Positions 1 to 7,620 of a stretch of 64,000 nucleotides of DNA are shown here, one piece after another. The notes below the pieces were generated by a model. That model saw only the letters and a program-made list of their open reading frames with translations. It was not told the origin of the DNA and made no database searches. The DNA comes from Polytrichum commune (taxonomy: Eukaryota > Streptophyta > Polytrichopsida > Polytrichales > Polytrichaceae). Within the stretch, counting starts at the first letter, position 1, and each line of letters starts with the position of its first letter. The DNA lies in assembly GCA_950295325.1 (NCBI GenBank), contig OX485806.1, positions 15,128,001 through 15,192,000 on the forward strand. Direction: 5' to 3'. The position numbers and the translations under genes are program-made.

Positions 1-3000
1 GTGTTAGTGGATGGTTGTTTATTTTTATTACTTGTAGGTACGGGGAGATGTTTGCTGGTGTGGGAATTTTGGTGACATTTCCCGGGAATGCATATTTGTG
101 ATGGATAAGTGTGAGTAGGCCGCCTCTTCCGGGGGTATAGGGCATTATTTGTTGGATGCACCTCGTGAATGCGTGTGTGTTGTTGAAAGTGAGTTTGAAT
201 TCCGGGAATAAGTTTTGTATATATTTAGTAGATTTGTTTGCAGTGAGTTTGGTTTCTTGGATATGAATGATTGCTGTGTTATTTAGAGAGTTGTTGATTA
301 AGTCTTGTAAGTTTGGTAGTGATGTGTTGAGCGATGACGCATTCCAAGTTATTATGTTTGTTTCGTGCTCGGTGTTAGAGTTTATTCTTGTGATTGGTGT
401 GGGAGCGGCCAGGAGTGGGGGTGGGTGTGAGTATTCGCTTATATTTTCTAAACATCTAAGTGTTTCGGTTATTAACTGGTTTGGAAGGAAGGGGAATTCT
501 TTCTTGAGGGTGATTGGTGTGGGTGTGGTGGCTTGGTTGTGGATGAAATCGTATATTTTGGTGTGTATTGAGTTTTGGGGGAGTATTATATGTTGATTGT
601 TTTCTATGAATATTGTGTAGGGGTGCGGTGTCAGTATGTGTCTTTCGGGGGGGTTGGTGAGGTTAGCTAGTCTAATAATTAGTGTGTTGGTCCATATGTC
701 GTTAAAGTGGTAGTTTTGGGGGTGGGCTAGTATGCTATTGCATGTGTCTATTGAGGGGTGGATGGTGATGACTATAGCATATAGCAAATGGGTTGGTGGT
801 GATTGCCTTTGTGTTTGGATGTATTGGTGTAGATGTGGGTGGGTAATTATTGCTTGATGGTGTAGAGGGTGTGTATTCCTTAGTATGTGAGCAAATGTAT
901 TTGCTATGTGTTGGTATTCATGTTGTAGTTTGATAGTGTTTGGAATGAAGTATATCTTGGCTCTCTTTTTGTGTGTAGCAGGATGCGTATGTAGGATGTT
1001 AGGCATTGGTCCGGGGTTGGATTCTATGTCTCCGCATTTTAGTAATTCTAGTTTGTTAGTGAAGTAGTATCCGTGGAAGTGGATTATGTTGGGGTTTTTC
1101 ATGTTTGTTTTTAGATATATTGTGATTGTACATTTGGTTGTGGAAAATAGGTTAGGTATAGCGGGTATGGTTTTTTCTATTTGTATGGGTGAGAAGTGTG
1201 GTTTCGTATTATTTGTAGATTTTTGGCTTGTTATTGAGTTAGGTTTCCAATTATTTATGAAGTGGTATTTGTTATTCTTTGTGTGGCGAGGCCGGTAGGC
1301 CGAGGCCATTGTGTTTTTTGGGTGGGGTTGGTATTTTATATGAGGGCTTAATAGGTGTTTGATTTTGTTATGGTGTTCGAAGCTAGGGTAGGGTTTATTT
1401 TTGGAGCATTTGTTTTGTAGGTGTGCTTTGGCATTTGTTGAGAGGTGAGGTTGGTATGTTGAGGTTGCTTTGTTTTTCGGGTTGGCTTTTTGTTTAATAT
1501 GTATATTTAGTTTTGGGTAGGGGTGGTTTTTGGGGAACGGTTTGTGGTTTTGGTGGGTGTTGTATTTAGTTGTTAGGTGTGTATGGGAGTTGTCTTGGAG
1601 TATGTGTTTTGTAGTTGTGCTTGGTTTCCATTTGGTTGTGATAGGGTTTGGTTTGTGGTGAAGATGGTAGGTCAAGGTCATTTCGTAGTTTTGACATAGT
1701 TTGTTTTTCAAGTGGAGGTTGGGTTTGGAGCTAGGGTATGGTGTGCTTTTTGAGCTTAGGTTGGGATGTATTTTAGATAGTGGATGGGGCTCTAGGTTAG
1801 GTTGGTTTTCTTGCTTTGGGTGGGTATTATGTTTTGGGCATTGTTGTGGATGCACTTTGTATTTTAAGTAGAGTTTAACTTTTGAGTGTATTCTATATTT
1901 CAGATGAAGTTTATTATTTGGATGGGAGATGTGTCTTAGATGGAGTCTATGTTTTGGATGAGGTATGTATTGTGAGCGAAGTTGGGGGTGTTTGTGGTTT
2001 GGGAATAATTTGGTTTTTGGATGAAGTTTATGTTTTAGGTGGACTTTATAATTTGGATGTAGCTTGTTTCTTGGATGGAGATTGTGCTTTAAGTGGGGAC
2101 TATATCTTATGTGAGGGTAGTATATTGGGTGGGGCTGTGGTGGTTTTTGTTTTGGGTGGGTATGTTGTTGTGGGGGGGATGTTATATTTCTTAGTTGATT
2201 GGGTGGAGGGTAATTGATTAGGTTAGGGTAGGTTCCTAGTTCATAATGTGGGTTATGTTTTGGATGAGATATGTATTTTGGGTGGTTTATGTATTTTGGA
2301 TGGGATCCGTGTCTTGGATGAAGGAGGTGCCTTGGATGTGGTATGAATTTTGAGTATTTGACGGAGTTCGGGTTGTGTATTATGTTATTTGATTGTTTAG
2401 GTGTGAGGGAGGGATTTAGTTTTGAGTACGTCCTTTGTTTAGGATGCAACTTATATTTTAGATGTGGTTTGGATGTAAGATGAAGTTTGTTTGTTGGTAT
2501 GGTGAAGGTATCTTTGATTTGGATGCATGATGAAGGTATCTTTGGGTTGTTCTTGTTTGATTTGTGGTATTTGTTTGGTGTGGATTTTGTTATAGGGGGG
2601 GTGATGGGTGGGGTGGGTATAATGTTTTTTAGTTGTTTAGGTATGGATTGTAATTTTGTATGTTTGCTTGTAGTTAGGTTAGTTCCCCAATATTGTGTAA
2701 AGCTATTTTTGTATTTAGTTTTATGGCGAGGCCGGTAGGCCGAGGCCATTTTATTTTTTGGGTATTTGTAATTTGAGTGGTAGTTTGGTGTTGAGAGCGG
2801 TAGTTTATTAGGTATGGGTTGTGTTTTGTATGTTGGGTGGGGTTTGTATTTTTGGTGGAGTTTATATGTTTGGTGGGGATTATATTTTGGGTGTAATATG
2901 TATTTTGTGTGGGGTTTGTATTTTGGGTGTGTATATTGTTTCGTTTGAGTTCTGTCTTTGTGCATGCGTAAAGTAAAGTGATTGTATTTATATTTCATAT

Positions 3001-3805
3001 GGTATTTTGGCCATCGTATGGTATCATGGCTAGTATGATGGTATCTTTTATTATAGAGTACGGACTTTGTTGTAGGTGTGTGTATGATGTTTGGGTGTGG
3101 TCGGTTTTTAGTCTCGTTTATTCTTTGGTTCTTTATGATTATGTTTTTGGTTATAGTGAAAGGGTTAGTTGTGGCGGGTGTTATGCTTTTTATTTGTATG
3201 AGTAGGAAGTATGTGTATTTTGGATTAATTGTATGGTATTTGTATTTTGTTTGAGTATAGTGTTTTGTTTGGGTATGGTATTTTGCTTGAGTATAGCCTT
3301 TTTCTTGAGCATGGCATTTTGCTTGAGAATGGTATTTTGTTTGAGTATGGTGTGTTGCTTGAGTATGGTATTTTGTTTGAGTATGGTATTTTGTTTGAGT
3401 ATGGTATTTTGTTTGAGTATGGTATTTTGTTTGAGTATGGTATTTTGTTTGAGTATGGTATTTTGCTTGGGTATGGTATTTTGCTTGAGTACAGTATTTT
3501 GCTCGAGAATAGTATTTTGTTTGAGTATGGCATTTTGCTTGGGTATGGAATTTTGCTTGAGTATGGAATTTGTGTTTGTATAAAGTAGATAACTTGTATT
3601 TCATATGGTATTTTGGACATTGTGGGATACTATGAGTAGTACGATGGTATCTAGTATTTATTCTAGGTGTAATAGTATATAGAATACTATGTGTAATACT
3701 ATGTTTAATACTATGTCTACATATGTGTATGTATCTAAGACAGTATTGAAGTAAATACTCTTGTTTTACCCGGCGATTTGTGGTCAATCCACATTTGGCA
3801 GGTCT
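1..3805 (-). CDS. LINE ORF2, partial: repeat-rich N-terminus, 2A-like peptide, APE-type endonuclease start
   Basis: I read this frame by hand on the minus strand. It opens after a TAA at 3808-3806 and has no stop down to base 1 (1,268 codons), continuing past the window. The first in-frame ATG is at 3604; later candidates are at 2998, 2749 and 1309. In order it encodes: about 18 TQTKYH-like hexapeptides (3570-3240), degenerate HPKHKL-like hexapeptides (about 2950-1860), MASAYRPRH twice (2749, 1309), LLKCGDIESNPGP (1045-1007), then an endonuclease-like stretch. In that stretch NIITWN (tryptophan-asparagine codons at 341-346) and IQETKL (glutamate codon 254-256), followed by GRGGLLTLIHHKY, match the N-terminal catalytic motifs of APE endonucleases in LINE ORF2 proteins. 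The sense strand is extremely A+C rich. The family role is nicking target DNA for target-primed reverse transcription. The product upstream of the endonuclease has no function I recognise. Confidence 0.82.
1007..1045 (-). other. 2A-like ribosome-skipping peptide within ORF2
   Basis: The minus-strand codons read LLKCGDIESNPGP, matching the D-[VI]-E-x-N-P-G-P consensus of 2A peptides, with the usual LLxCG-type residues just before it. Known 2A sequences make the ribosome skip the Gly-Pro bond, giving two proteins from one frame. Skipping here would release everything upstream and start the endonuclease-bearing product at proline (codon 1009-1007). If translation starts at the ATG at 1309, the released leader is 100 residues. 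2A-like peptides near the N-terminus of ORF2 are established for some animal and trypanosome non-LTR elements. Activity here is inferred from the motif. Confidence 0.8.
1284..1310 (-). repeat. 27-bp direct repeat, copy 2 (encodes MASAYRPRH)
   Basis: Identical to 2724-2750 and exactly 1,440 bp (480 codons) away, so both copies are in the same reading frame. Its ATG (A at 1309) is the last MASAYRPRH start before the 2A-like peptide and endonuclease, making it a candidate internal initiation site for ORF2. Confidence 0.9.
1860..2960 (-). repeat. Degenerate 18-bp repeats in ORF2 (HPKHKL-like hexapeptides)
   Basis: Clear 18-bp periodicity persists at about 2830-2935 (plus-strand units such as GGGTGTAATATGTATTTT) and about 1900-2345 (units such as TTTGGATGAAGTTTATGT). 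In the ORF2 frame this gives hexapeptides HPKYKP, HPRHLL, HPKHNP, HPRNKL, HLKHKL and HPKHRL. Units differ by several substitutions and occasional indels, but no stop occurs. The region looks like an older version of the array at 3240-3570. Confidence 0.75.
2724..2750 (-). repeat. 27-bp direct repeat, copy 1 (encodes MASAYRPRH)
   Basis: A GC-rich 27-bp block inside very AC-rich sequence is identical to the block at 1284-1310. On the minus strand it begins with ATG (A at 2749) and reads MASAYRPRH in the ORF2 frame. Weak similarity continues on both sides, for example NLTTSKHT here against NSITSQKST downstream of the second copy. Confidence 0.9.
2968..3690 (-). repeat. Pair of ~110-bp direct repeats flanking the 18-bp array
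   Basis: Segments at about 2968-3085 and 3577-3690 share long matches, including TATTTCATATGGTATTTTGG. In the ORF2 frame both encode RYHxTxH...PKYHMKYK, with ATG codons at 2998 and 3604. These are 606 bp, or 202 codons, apart, so this duplication also preserves the frame. Confidence 0.75.
3240..3570 (-). repeat. 18-bp coding minisatellite, about 18 units
   Basis: Tandem units of exactly 18 bp (plus-strand unit TTTGAGTATGGTATTTTG) run with near-identical copies in the middle (about 3360-3465) and more diverged ones at both edges. Because 18 is a multiple of three, the array stays open in several frames on both strands. In the ORF2 frame it encodes KYHTQT/KYHTQA hexapeptides. The homogeneous core with diverged flanks is typical of unequal crossover or replication slippage. 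Confidence 0.9.
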
Positions 3806-5541
3806 TTAATCATAAGATTTGGGTTTACCAACCCAGTAATTTGTTGCATCCCGGTAAGTGCCATGGTTAATGTGCTTTGGATGTCCAACATTTGCTTCTT
3901 CAATTTTTCGTTGATGTCGTCTACATAGTTGTGGGCCTCTTTGACTATGTCTTCCTTCAAGACCTTCATCTCTTCGTGTAGTTCAAGCTTGAGTTTCTTG
4001 TTGCCTTCTTCAATGGCCTCCTTCATGATGGTAAAAACTTCGCTTTTTGTGGCATTCTTCTCCCCTTGGTTTTGGTTTTGGATTGCTTCAATGGTGTTCA
4101 CCAAGCAAGTGTTAGTATCTTCAAATCCAAACTTGACCAACAAATCTTTGGAGGGTTTGTCAATACCATCAAGACTTCTACGGTGTGGAGTGATTTCCAC
4201 ATGATAAACACCAATTTTTTCCTCTTTTCCTACAAACTTTTTGTATACAAAGGGGTTGAGGCATTCAACATTTGCACTACCATTGTGTCTAATTCCATCT
4301 TGCTTATGGAACCAAATGGAGACAACATTCTTGGTTCCAATTATCTTGCAAATTTCAAGAGATGTGTCATCTATGCTCATCAAGATGGGAAGGTTGTAGA
4401 AGGTGAGGGTTAGAGCTTCTTTCCTTTGTTTTTGCTCCAAGGTGAGAGAAGGCCCTTTGTTCACTTGTCCTTCCAAAATTTCATGGTGTGTTGCAACTTG
4501 AAGTGTTTGGATTTTCTTGGCTTGTGAGGGGGTTGGTGCAACAATGTAAGCATGATTGTTGGGAGTGCTCTTTTGCACCTCTACAATCTCAAATTCATGA
4601 CCTCTCCTAAAACTATTCTCTAAGATATCTTTGAAGAGCATGTGTGAAGAGACATCAATCAAAGTTTCGCTAGTGATTTTGATTGAAAGGTTGTTGTTCC
4701 TAGCTATAGAGTGGTAAGTCTTACATACCTTTCCAAGAGTACCTTGGGTTGATTTGGGGTCCAATTGTAGAATGAATGGTCTAAGTCCTTTCAACAAAGC
4801 CACACCATCAATTTCGGGGTGGAGAAGGTGGAGTTTGGCAATTCCCGCCCAAACTCCTTTTTCCCCACCTCTCTTGACACTCATGCACATGATAGATATG
4901 GGCTCAATAAGGTTAGTGCCAAGAGGAATTTGCATAAACTCAAGTCTTTTCTTTACTAGTTCTTTCACATGGTTGTGTAGGAGAGGGGTGTTGGGTAATT
5001 GAAATTCAATAGCAACATGAAAGTCCAAAGCAAGACATGTATTGGGATCAATTGGGATATCATATGGGATTTGTGTTAGGTTGAGGTGTTGTCCAAGGAC
5101 ACCATCCTCTCTCTTACCTGGGTAGTAGATTTGGGGTATCCTTGGGAAGGAAATTGCGACCTCCTCCATTTCTTCCGCTTCCTTCCTTGGTACACCCCTA
5201 AGTACCCTATCTTCGATGGATTCACCATCGAAGAGCTCTTCCAACCCCTCATCCATAGCCAATTTCTCCATGTTAGTGAAACCATACCAAAATTTTTGAC
5301 GGAACCTTCGTTCCGGGAAGATAGAGTTTACCTGTGTGGCTTGTGGGCGTCGTTGTGGGGTTTGGTGTAGAGATTTGTTCGGTGTTGTCTTCTCCCGGGT
5401 CCTCTTGGTGCCTATTTCCTTCGCAGCTTGATTCTCCTTTGCCTTCTCCGCTAAGAGCCGCATGAGGTTTTGTGTGGGTGTGTCTACCTCCATGTTGTCA
5501 TCATCTCCCAAGATGGGTCGGAATGTGGAAGGCGATGCCAT
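3784..5541 (-). CDS. LINE ORF1 protein: RRM-like region and C-terminal coiled coil
   Basis: The frame encodes 585 residues from the first ATG at 5541 (MASPSTFRPILG) to a TGA at 3786-3784; it is open a little further upstream without an ATG. The N-terminus is charged and disordered, with an RRPQATQ-type basic patch. A central globular part follows. About residues 375-465 read LTLTFYNLPILM ... GSANVECLNPFVYKKFV, which resembles the beta1 and beta3 strands of an RNA-recognition fold. The last 100 residues are strongly heptad-like (EEGNKKLKLELHEEMKVLK), predicting a coiled coil. No CCHC zinc knuckle is visible. LINE ORF1 proteins bind element RNA and oligomerise; that role is inferred from the layout and position directly 5' of ORF2. 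The coding strand is less AC-skewed than ORF2. Its end overlaps the open ORF2 frame by 22 nt in the -1 frame. Confidence 0.75.
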   Translation of the reverse strand: MASPSTFRPILGDDDNMEVDTPTQNLMRLLAEKAKENQAAKEIGTKRTREKTTPNKSLHQTPQRRPQATQVNSIFPERRFRQKFWYGFTNMEKLAMDEGLEELFDGESIEDRVLRGVPRKEAEEMEEVAISFPRIPQIYYPGKREDGVLGQHLNLTQIPYDIPIDPNTCLALDFHVAIEFQLPNTPLLHNHVKELVKKRLEFMQIPLGTNLIEPISIMCMSVKRGGEKGVWAGIAKLHLLHPEIDGVALLKGLRPFILQLDPKSTQGTLGKVCKTYHSIARNNNLSIKITSETLIDVSSHMLFKDILENSFRRGHEFEIVEVQKSTPNNHAYIVAPTPSQAKKIQTLQVATHHEILEGQVNKGPSLTLEQKQRKEALTLTFYNLPILMSIDDTSLEICKIIGTKNVVSIWFHKQDGIRHNGSANVECLNPFVYKKFVGKEEKIGVYHVEITPHRRSLDGIDKPSKDLLVKFGFEDTNTCLVNTIEAIQNQNQGEKNATKSEVFTIMKEAIEEGNKKLKLELHEEMKVLKEDIVKEAHNYVDDINEKLKKQMLDIQSTLTMALTGMQQITGLVNPNLMIKDLPNVD

Positions 5542-7620
5542 GTTTTGGTTCTGCAGACTCTGCAGCTCTGGAGACTCTTCAGCTCTTCCCTCGCTCCGGA
5601 ATTGACTGATAGTGCCGTTACTCGACAAATTTTTGTGCTAGGGTGGTCGTCCACAATGCTGACCTCTATCTTGCAGCTCCAACGCAGCTCCACCGCAGCT
5701 CCAGTAGTAGCTCCTTTCGTCTGCTGTATCGGCATGTTTCTTTCTTGCTCCCTTCGGTACTTTTAAGCAGGACTTCCGGCACTTTCGGCGCTCCCTCTTA
5801 GTGTAGCTCGGCAGATGTTACTCTTGGAGCTCTTCAATCTTCGGCAACCAGGGTCAGGTCTTCTCGGCGCTCCTGGTGCTCCTAAGCTTCTCGGCGCTCC
5901 TGATTTTCTCAGTGCACCTTTCGTCTGCTCCCTTCGGTACTTCTAAACAGGGCTTCCAGCACTCTCGGTACTCCCTCTTAGTACAGCTCGGTAGATGTTA
6001 CTGTGTATCTCTTAGCTTCTTGTCACAGAAATTCTCTCGGGATCTCTAAATCTGCAGCTGGGTGTCTCTACAATCTTTCGGCAACCAGGGCAGATTTTCT
6101 CGGCGCTCCTGCTATATCGGCAGCTTTCTTTCCTGCTCCCTTTGGTGCTTTTAATCAGGACTTCCGGCACTTTCGTCGCTCCCCCTTAGTGCATCTCGGC
6201 AGATGTTACTGTGTTTCTCTTCTCCTCCTGTCGCAGCTACCTTCTGTAGCCCCCTTGTGTCTCCTCCCGCTCCCTTCCACGGCGTCGATCAGCAACTATC
6301 TTCTCCTCTCAGCTGCCTTCTGTAGCTTCCCTAGTGTTGCCTCCCGCTCTCTTGTGTCGTCTCCCGCTCCCTTCCTCAGCAATCGGCCAATTTTTATGTC
6401 TGTGTGGCAGCGCGGCTGCTGTTTGTCGATCTTACTTGCCCTTTAGAGAATTTGGAGTGTCTCTGGGTTACGGCTGGGATTTAAAGTTTTGGAGTTCACT
6501 CTTCTCGGATCGGCCTCTAGTTTTTGAAGACGGCTGCCCCTTAGCTTTCTGAAGCTCTACAGATCTCGCTTCTAGTTCACCGATTGGGACTCGCAAATCT
6601 GCCTATGCATTTTAATCACACAATAGATGTAATCGGTCTCTAACTTCTAACGTCAGTAGCCCCCTAGTTTTTTCGGACAGAGTAGCAGTTATGCTGCTGT
6701 TTGTGGGTTTGGATTGTCCTCACAGATTTTCTAGAATGTGAAGCTTCAGATCAGTTTACACTTATTCTTACCACACACTCTTAAAGTCGGTTACCTTACA
6801 GATCTCAGTTTTTTCAAACAAATAGTAGCTAGGCTGTTGTTGCAAACTAGTTATCTTCGCAGGTTCTCTGAATCTCTAAACTTTTGTTTCAGATCTGCTT
6901 TCCTCTACCCAGATCAGTGGCCTAATCACAGGTTATTTCGCTTTCACAGATCTCGCTTCTAGCTTTTGGACTTTCACAAATTGGGACTTTGCTAATCTGT
7001 CTATGCATTAATCACTCAATAATATAACCTAATCATCTACTTGGGAGAATGCTTTACAAATCTTTTTGGTGTGTCGTTGTTTGGTGTATCATCAGCACAG
7101 TTTTCACCGTCCCGCCTTCTTCCTTGTGATTCCTTCGGGGTAGTGCCGATGTTTAAGAGTTGCGCTTGTTGCGCCTCCTTGTCGGAGCAGTGTCGCTTGC
7201 TCCGAGGTTCGAGTTGATACTGATCGCCGGGAGCTATGCTTGTTGCGCCTCCTAGTCGAAGCAGTGTTGGGGCAGTGTCAAATGTGTTGTATCTTGTTGG
7301 TATGTTATGCAGTTTGGGTCATGTTGCGCTTGGGTATCTGGTAACCCTAGATCTCATATTTGTGTTGCTGCTTCACCATTAACCATTGGCACCAACACAT
7401 GCTCATACTCGTGGATTCCAGCCCGCTTCAGTACCAATCCACTTTGAGGCAGCTACATCACTCAATGAAATCTAGGTTTAGATCTAACAATCTTCACTTG
7501 TGAATCACGATCTGGGCATCACTCCTCCCGGAACTCACATATAGCTTTAGATCTGTGACCTAACACATACCTTCACGCAACAATCCCTCCCTGTTTCTGT
7601 TCCTCAGCTCCGCTCAACCA
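5542..7620 (-). promoter_or_regulatory. LINE 5' region with internal tandem repeats
   Basis: No coding sequence is recognised. The plus strand is rich in C and T (GCTCCCTTCGGTAC, TTCTCGGCGCTCCTG). Repeated blocks fill the region, so it probably acts as a 5' UTR/promoter as in LINEs with monomeric promoters. The block around 6559-6625 is repeated at about 6946-7015 (shared CACAGATCTCGCTTCTAG and a following ATTGGGACT...TATGCATT). A TTGTTGCGCCTCCT motif recurs at 7168 and 7240. Promoter activity is inference. Confidence 0.5.
5715..6230 (-). repeat. ~180-210 bp tandem monomers in the LINE 5' region
   Basis: Three copies share CTCCCTTCGGTAC-like starts at 5748, 5928 and 6136, followed by ...CTTCCGGCACTTTCG..., CTCCCTCTTAGT and TCGGCAGATGTTACT. 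Spacing is 180 and 208 bp. A CGGCAACCAGGG...TTCTCGGCGCTCCTG block recurs at about 5840 and 6078. Shorter ~93-bp repeats continue to 6400 (CAGCTRCCTTCTGTAGC at about 6236 and 6329). Confidence 0.75.

Follow-up and report, generated by a model that had tools for sequence, protein, structure and literature searches.

A 2A-type motif in the ORF2 frame of a moss LINE

The moss Polytrichum commune has a Dualen-type LINE whose ORF2 probably encodes a functional 2A (StopGo) peptide, where it would part a long leader from the enzyme polyprotein during translation; judged from sequence comparison, this reading has a probability of about three in four. The window analysed, a stretch of 64,000 nucleotides, encodes the core LLKCGDIESNPGP at positions 1007 to 1045 of the minus strand, as found by translation of both strands, and the bond predicted to be skipped is that between G and the last P. 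The plus-strand reading of the same positions (WSGVGFYVSAF followed by two stops) lacks the motif and was rejected. Both the full D-I-E-x-N-P-G-P consensus and the LLxCG context described in the original prediction are present. The core DIESNPGP fits the (D/G/C/N)(V/I)ExNPGP definition of 2A/StopGo, and the L-rich upstream context with (A/S/C)G before D12 is found in the window as LLKCG. An L-rich class of upstream motifs with (A/S/C)G before D12 is given in the available part of PMC12846837, and the context LL(K/Q/L)(C/S/G)G-D fits this class. The 32-residue 2A context MKNPNIIHFHGYYFTNKLELLKCGDIESNPGP (1007 to 1102, minus strand) was read from the ORF2 translation and compared among loci; upstream of position −16 it varies freely between the families to which the copies belong.

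The motif lies in frame within one long ORF, as had been predicted. In the window the open frame spans 1268 codons from position 3805 down to 2 and is still open at the window edge, and in the sister copy L129 the frame is uninterrupted for 2619 codons to the edge of the retrieved stretch and runs on into the endonuclease and reverse transcriptase (EN-RT). The start of the APE-type endonuclease (NIITWNASSLN...) was placed at 2 to 352 on the minus strand, with a border that is approximate and drawn by analogy with L129, and it runs past the window edge; a Pfam search of this portion alone gave no match. The endonuclease had been expected about 200 codons after the motif, and in L129 the distance is about 218, the 2A ending at residue 285 and PF03372 beginning at 504. 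Comparison of copies and homologues showed a conserved module of about 195 residues directly after NPGP (425 to 1006, minus strand; MPNIL..THP..HKKR.K.YFIPNTIKLQPEYQHIA...NPPERHI.T.HPYT), and a structural model of 194 residues of it was all-helical at low confidence (pLDDT 63).

Domain order and class of the element

ORF2 of L129 consists, in order, of leader and 2A (285 residues), the module of about 218 residues, APE, RT, a PCIF1-like domain, RNase H and a C-terminal block. The APE matched PF03372 at E 8.8e-4, short of the cut-off for that family, and in two relatives the cut-offs were passed (P0007, PF14529, 1.9e-7; P0009, PF03372, 1.3e-5). RNase H matched PF00075 at E 4.9e-13. The closest solved structure for the RT was R2 (E 2.7e-30), and the 8 RT matches at E≤0.01 among solved structures comprised R2 proteins, two 'reverse transcriptase-like protein' sequences and RNase H1. 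No chain named L1 was among them, and plant L1 was rejected as the class of the element. An alignment of L129 with the 14 top-ranking of 30 relatives showed, in the C-terminal block, RH[ND], PD and E..Y in 15 of 15 sequences and CPxC in 12 of 15; the block looks similar to the RLE of R2. A search of the C-terminal 240 residues against the sequences of solved structures gave no match.

The domain order and the R2-like RT, rather than an RT tree, identify the element as a Dualen-type dual-endonuclease LINE. The predicted plant LINE is thereby upheld as a LINE of a moss and narrowed to this type, the RT matching R2 and not plant L1. Like plant L1 LINEs it is a non-LTR element of a plant with APE, RT and RNase H, but it differs from them in the R2-matching RT, the RLE-like C-terminal block and the 2A. 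Kojima and Fujiwara are said to have dealt with Dualen/RandI LINEs of green algae in 2005. APE, RT closest to R2, RNase H and a putative RLE-like C-terminus are shared with those elements. Among the literature matches listed no report of a 2A in the Dualen/RandI group was found, and three Haematococcus proteins carry one too (see below). In the available part of PMC4640811 Dualen is the group in which APE and RLE occur together, and RNase H is mentioned for Dualen/RandI; that of PMC8226300 places Dualen LINEs in Chlamydomonas and relatives.

A PCIF1_WW domain (PF12237) was observed between RT and RNase H, at residues 1871-1964 of L129 ORF2 and at L011:8281-9900, and is present also in many related algal-type proteins. 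NPPF is the catalytic motif of PCIF1, and it was not evident by eye in the PCIF1_WW domain of this LINE.

Upstream of ORF2 lies ORF1 (617 codons; 3784 to 5637, minus strand), which is under purifying selection with a nonsynonymous to synonymous (N/S) ratio of 0.13 relative to expectation for shared changes, both masked and unmasked (see below). Neither ORF1 nor the ORF2 fragment of the window had any Pfam match. The ORF1 stop lies inside the ORF2 frame (3784-3805, minus strand) in a −1 relation with an overlap of 19 nt; the −1 overlap is likewise 19 nt in L009, L011 and L016, 22 nt in L129, where its sequence differs from that of the window, 37 nt in L014 and 67 nt in L022. The relation is different in L020/L021 (23 nt, +1). 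In L009 67 codons of the ORF2 frame precede its first ATG, in L129 49, and entry into ORF2 would be by frameshift or by reinitiation. L020 and L021 are identical 9901-base stretches (G000:C1:70160187-70170087 and C1:70178714-70188614) in opposite orientation about 18 kb apart, which points to an inverted duplication of recent date or to an artefact of the assembly.

The window also holds an AVT1-like transporter gene, with closest named matches in Ceratodon purpureus (71%) and Physcomitrium patens (65%) and further named plants at 60% identity or less among the best 120 of 651 matches. A 240-residue protein, P0128, matches it at 96% over half of the query.

Retention of the motif among genomic copies

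The genome (407.8 Mb in 64 contigs) was searched with GAYRTNGARNNNAAYCCNGGNCC, a degenerate codon pattern for D[IV]ExNPGP, which gave 273 matches (143+130) against 0 for the reversed control. With one mismatch tolerated the counts were 471 and 9, and for these pattern counts the places are those of the first 100 matches. Twenty short loci (21 sites), picked for differing codon versions, belonged to very different families and encoded DIETNPGP, DIELNPGP, DIEPNPGP, DIEQNPGP, DVEPNPGP and others. The upstream region of the ORF is low-complexity and repeat-rich, as a motif arisen by chance in such a frame might have it, but the composition of the window ORF predicts only 1.2e-7 occurrences of D[VI]ExNPGP per ORF, and the 273 to 0 count, together with third positions that vary while the residues are fixed, makes chance a negligible explanation.

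A 501-bp stretch around the motif had 275 candidates in the genome, the best 40 of which were scored at 89-100% identity. GDIESNPGP was kept in 20 of the 20 close copies retrieved from these 40; of the other 20, 10 have the exact pattern, L112 reads DIEPNPGP and L088 GNIEPNPGP, the motif reading covering all of the 40 except the remaining 8. The close family alone is uninformative on the core, whose 10 codons show neither synonymous nor nonsynonymous changes there. For the 30-codon 2A context the N/S ratio was 0.70, but the 3 shared changes behind it are too few for interpretation.

A sample independent of the motif was obtained by searching the genome with the 195 residues that follow NPGP in the homologue P0009. 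Of 711 candidates the best 150 were scored (53-87% identical), and 65 rows from contigs C3-C7 were read at the place preceding the start of the match. Outside the 65 stand 10 C3-C7 rows starting at query residue 1 and rows starting later in the query, L016, L022 and L025 (all DIESNPGP, read earlier), one C24 row scoring identically to a C3 row, and 15 C1/C2 rows that had been retrieved for absence of the exact pattern. A recognisable motif was found at the expected place in all 65 copies, with exact NPGP in 52, D[VI][EH]xNPGP in 45 and D[VI]ExNPGP in 27. The L-rich upstream context was retained as foreseen, with L at −15 to −12 and C/S/G-G at −10/−9. At G, D, I, N, P, G and P the amino-acid entropy was 0-0.56 bit and that of the third codon positions 0.66-1.72 bit, and among states found in at least two copies these seven fixed codons showed 15 synonymous against 1 nonsynonymous. 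The variable core sites were x and E14, the latter being E in 35, H in 22 and K in 6 of the 65. These codon comparisons indicate that the motif is kept across families by selection on the peptide, E14 excepted.

Among the best 150, 16 copies combine an open frame of 1300 codons or more with a match free of stops, and NPGP was present in all 16 (9 DIE, 3 DIH and 4 DIK; some near-identical to one another). Two further scored rows had such long frames plus a stop, one of them being L052 with DIHPNPGP; the reading of motif places leaves aside the other, C2:51465225. The original prediction would have been in difficulty if most intact copies had lost NPGP; in the event it was conserved in the long stop-free frames and in four fifths of the sample drawn without use of the motif. 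Local stops and NPGP retention showed no clear contrast, NPGP being kept in 41 of the 51 copies whose 195-residue match is free of stops and in 11 of the 14 whose match contains one. It was missing in 13 of the 65, of which 3 have a stop within the match and 10 have none.

The losses in those 10 copies speak against the functional reading, as does a subfamily with GGDIKPNPGP, that is E14K (L087, L102, L107, L108, L114), with open frames of 1249 to 2924 codons. The longest stop-free frames of all, 2924 and 2663 codons, belong to this DIKPNPGP group, which weighs against a strict need for the 2A. With the 13 copies without NPGP, it could be taken to mean that the 2A is ancestral and now dispensable, functional in a founder and decaying here while sustained by recent copying. 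That history is improbable, given that the 15 to 1 excess at the seven fixed codons concerns shared and largely pre-insertion states, that NPGP is found in 16 of 16 long frames, albeit some of near-identical copies, and that E14H, common here, is more than 95% active in viral contexts in the available part of PMC12846837. The same part of that source gives the StopGo variants H14, H16 and N12 as more than 95% active, and the matching variants E14→H, N16→H and D12→N all occur in this genome; E14K is not among the active variants given there.

Some copies have a pair of 2A-type motifs in the same frame, separated by 44 to 267 residues (L047, L053, L058, L062 and L063, and the proteins P0007 and P0009). 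The upstream motif of the pair in L053 is DIQTNPGP, and the check for intervening stops covered the pairs other than those of L058, L062 and L063.

The leader upstream of the motif

The ORF2 leader (1046 to 3805, minus strand) is G-poor (5.8%), repeat-rich and stop-free in the 2A frame only. It contains an 18-bp tandem array of 18.3 copies (3242 to 3571, minus strand), read as KYHTQT-like repeats. Over 929 codons of the window copy the 2A frame contains 0 stops and the other two frames 46 and 57, and the longest ORF in 200 order-1 simulations of this leader was 188. L129 has 0 stops in 285 codons against 22 and 20, which was matched by 0 of 500 simulations. Leader length ranges from about 280 to 930 codons, a threefold difference between sister families.

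N/S ratios were taken from changes present in at least 2 of 15 copies, after 5 of 20 had been dropped (L021 as an identical duplicate and four truncated or divergent copies). Relative to expectation, the unmasked ratios for leader, ORF1, EN and RT were 0.98, 0.13, 0.40 and 0.30. Parts of ORF1 and of the leader align badly in some copies, and in a masked set, from which stretches below 85% local identity are dropped, the ratios were 0.55 (leader), 0.13, 0.40 and 0.30. A leader is expected to lean synonymous if it is translated, and this was observed where the copies align well (45 N : 28 S). The masked leader ratio differed from neutrality with a binomial p of 0.015 (0.88 unmasked), clearly from ORF1 (p 9e-6), barely from RT (p 0.04) and not from EN (p 0.43). 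Masking favours conserved parts, and the true leader ratio lies between 0.55 and 0.98. Leader singletons had ratios of 1.00-1.15. The 217-codon module after the 2A gave 1.29, but its 14 shared changes are too small a number for interpretation. Of the changes that copies share in the unmasked leader, 1 of 213 was nonsense, against 10 of 219 among singletons (p 0.011); in the masked leader it was 0 of 73 with 3.9% expected (p 0.055). The leader is thus kept open while changing fast, with constraint that is at most weak. Its open frame and this weak constraint point to translation, and the leader may have a use of its own. The repeat-rich upstream product of the original prediction stands as to its repeats; that it is stop-free, changes fast and is at most weakly constrained is a refinement.

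Ribosomes would come into the ORF2 frame where ORF1 ends, or close by, and would first translate a fast-changing leader several hundred codons long. In moss cells the nascent chain at ...GDIExNPG would stall the ribosome, with release at glycine and restart of translation at proline. The EN-RT-RNase H-RLE product would then begin at one place (P-M-P-N-I-L...), whatever the length or oddity of the leader; with the 2A at the end of the leader, the enzyme could therefore still start at one fixed place.

Internal initiation, an unlikely alternative

Met directly follows NPGP in 63 of the 65 sampled copies, and this could mark an internal start instead. The enzyme would then be initiated at this Met, or at a MASAYRPRH string about 90 codons upstream, and GDIExNPGP would serve as a structural motif at the N-terminus or be what is left of a former 2A. 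The string lies, in the window family, 271 nt before the core and in an ATGGCC context. Where NPGP is intact, however, the Met that follows it always has C at −3, from the CCN of proline, and C at −3 is a poor start context. The string itself was rejected as an internal start, its DNA being read in three frames.

It is the reading of a GC-rich element, GGCCTCGGCCTACCGGCCTCGCC, for which an exact-pattern search of the window gave copy 1, here read MASAYRPRH, at 1285 to 1307 and copy 2 at 2725 to 2747, both on the minus strand. The genome has 179 exact copies of the element against 0 for the reversed control. In the retrieved loci 45 occurrences of its 12-base core precede a 2A, in frames divided 33/7/5, which speaks against a general start at this place. 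The frame shifts are due partly to indels in decayed close copies (L015, L017, L018, L026, L028) and partly lie between families (L029, L030, L085, L086; L038). Since the core is read in all three frames, conservation of the element seems to act on its DNA or RNA; a hairpin fold was predicted for one copy (z −2.7). Under internal initiation, moreover, the leader would have no reason to remain open, and fixed D-I-[EH]-x-N-P-G-P residues around an x that varies freely are the signature of StopGo. Internal initiation is on this evidence unlikely, and ribosome skipping is preferred.

Relatives in other genomes

With ORF2 residues 900-1776 as query, 11 proteins were found, of which 7 extend upstream of the endonuclease. 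All 7 have NPGP directly before the same module, five as DIExNPGP and two as DIHPNPGP; the DIHPNPGP proteins each have another motif 140-159 residues farther upstream. In a wider set of 84 related proteins, 38 extend at least 1070 residues upstream of the RT, and a 2A-type octapeptide was found in 6 of these and in a seventh protein, P0095, with 0.012 expected by composition. The motifs of the 7 homologues and those of green-algal Dualen-type proteins favour the functional reading; that only 6 of 38 long Dualen-type proteins carry a 2A counts against it. In the green alga Haematococcus lacustris the 2A is present in 3 of 7 proteins (P0051, P0057, P0080), the only 3 of its proteins within the 38; in these it lies upstream of a Josephin domain, and in P0022, likewise an algal-type Dualen protein, an OTU domain lies downstream of the 2A. 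Pleodorina P0067 and Cymbomonas P0078 extend far enough upstream and yet lack a 2A.

Comparison with known 2A systems

2A peptides serve in plant biotechnology, and those of sea urchin and trypanosome LINEs have an L-rich context and an N-terminal place. Ingi is presumably among the non-LTR elements with a 2A. In the parts of the sources available, natural 2As are reported in trypanosome and sea urchin LINEs (PMC5972666) and 2As in non-LTR retrotransposons (PMC11512398), constructs with 2A work in plant cells (PMC4981915), and for natural StopGo in plant viruses no evidence was found (PMC12846837). In the titles and abstract openings among the literature matches listed, a scope outside of which the surveys Odon 2013 and Rao 2025 fall, no natural 2A in a plant or algal LINE was found; within the same scope this agrees with the earlier statement that there is no well-described land-plant case.

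The moss motif resembles the trypanosome and sea urchin 2As in being D[VI]ExNPGP in frame with APE-RT proteins. It is unlike them in its moss host, in the Dualen-type dual-endonuclease element and the long fast-changing leader, and in the many E14H copies, the E14K subfamily and the serial motif pairs of some copies. With viral StopGo, that is FMDV 2A and its relatives as given in the available part of PMC12846837, it shares the octapeptide, the L-rich class and the rare H14, H16 and N12 variants, but it sits in a chromosomal LINE of a plant.

Implications

Tentatively, and with somewhat less than even confidence, StopGo may be an old and widespread reset of the N-terminus in Dualen LINEs of the green lineage, from chlorophytes to mosses, which would let the element carry an ever-changing, repeat-grown and translated leader without harm to the enzyme; some families would have second upstream 2As, and E14H, perhaps also E14K, would be working versions. 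The E14K subfamily is a natural test of E14. The 2A is here tied to the dual-endonuclease LINE group Dualen, and the parting of a fast-changing translated leader from the enzyme is proposed as the reason. A land-plant genome itself holds hundreds of 2As, including natural E14H, E14K, N16H and D12N versions, and if functional they would be a natural use of ribosome skipping in a land plant.
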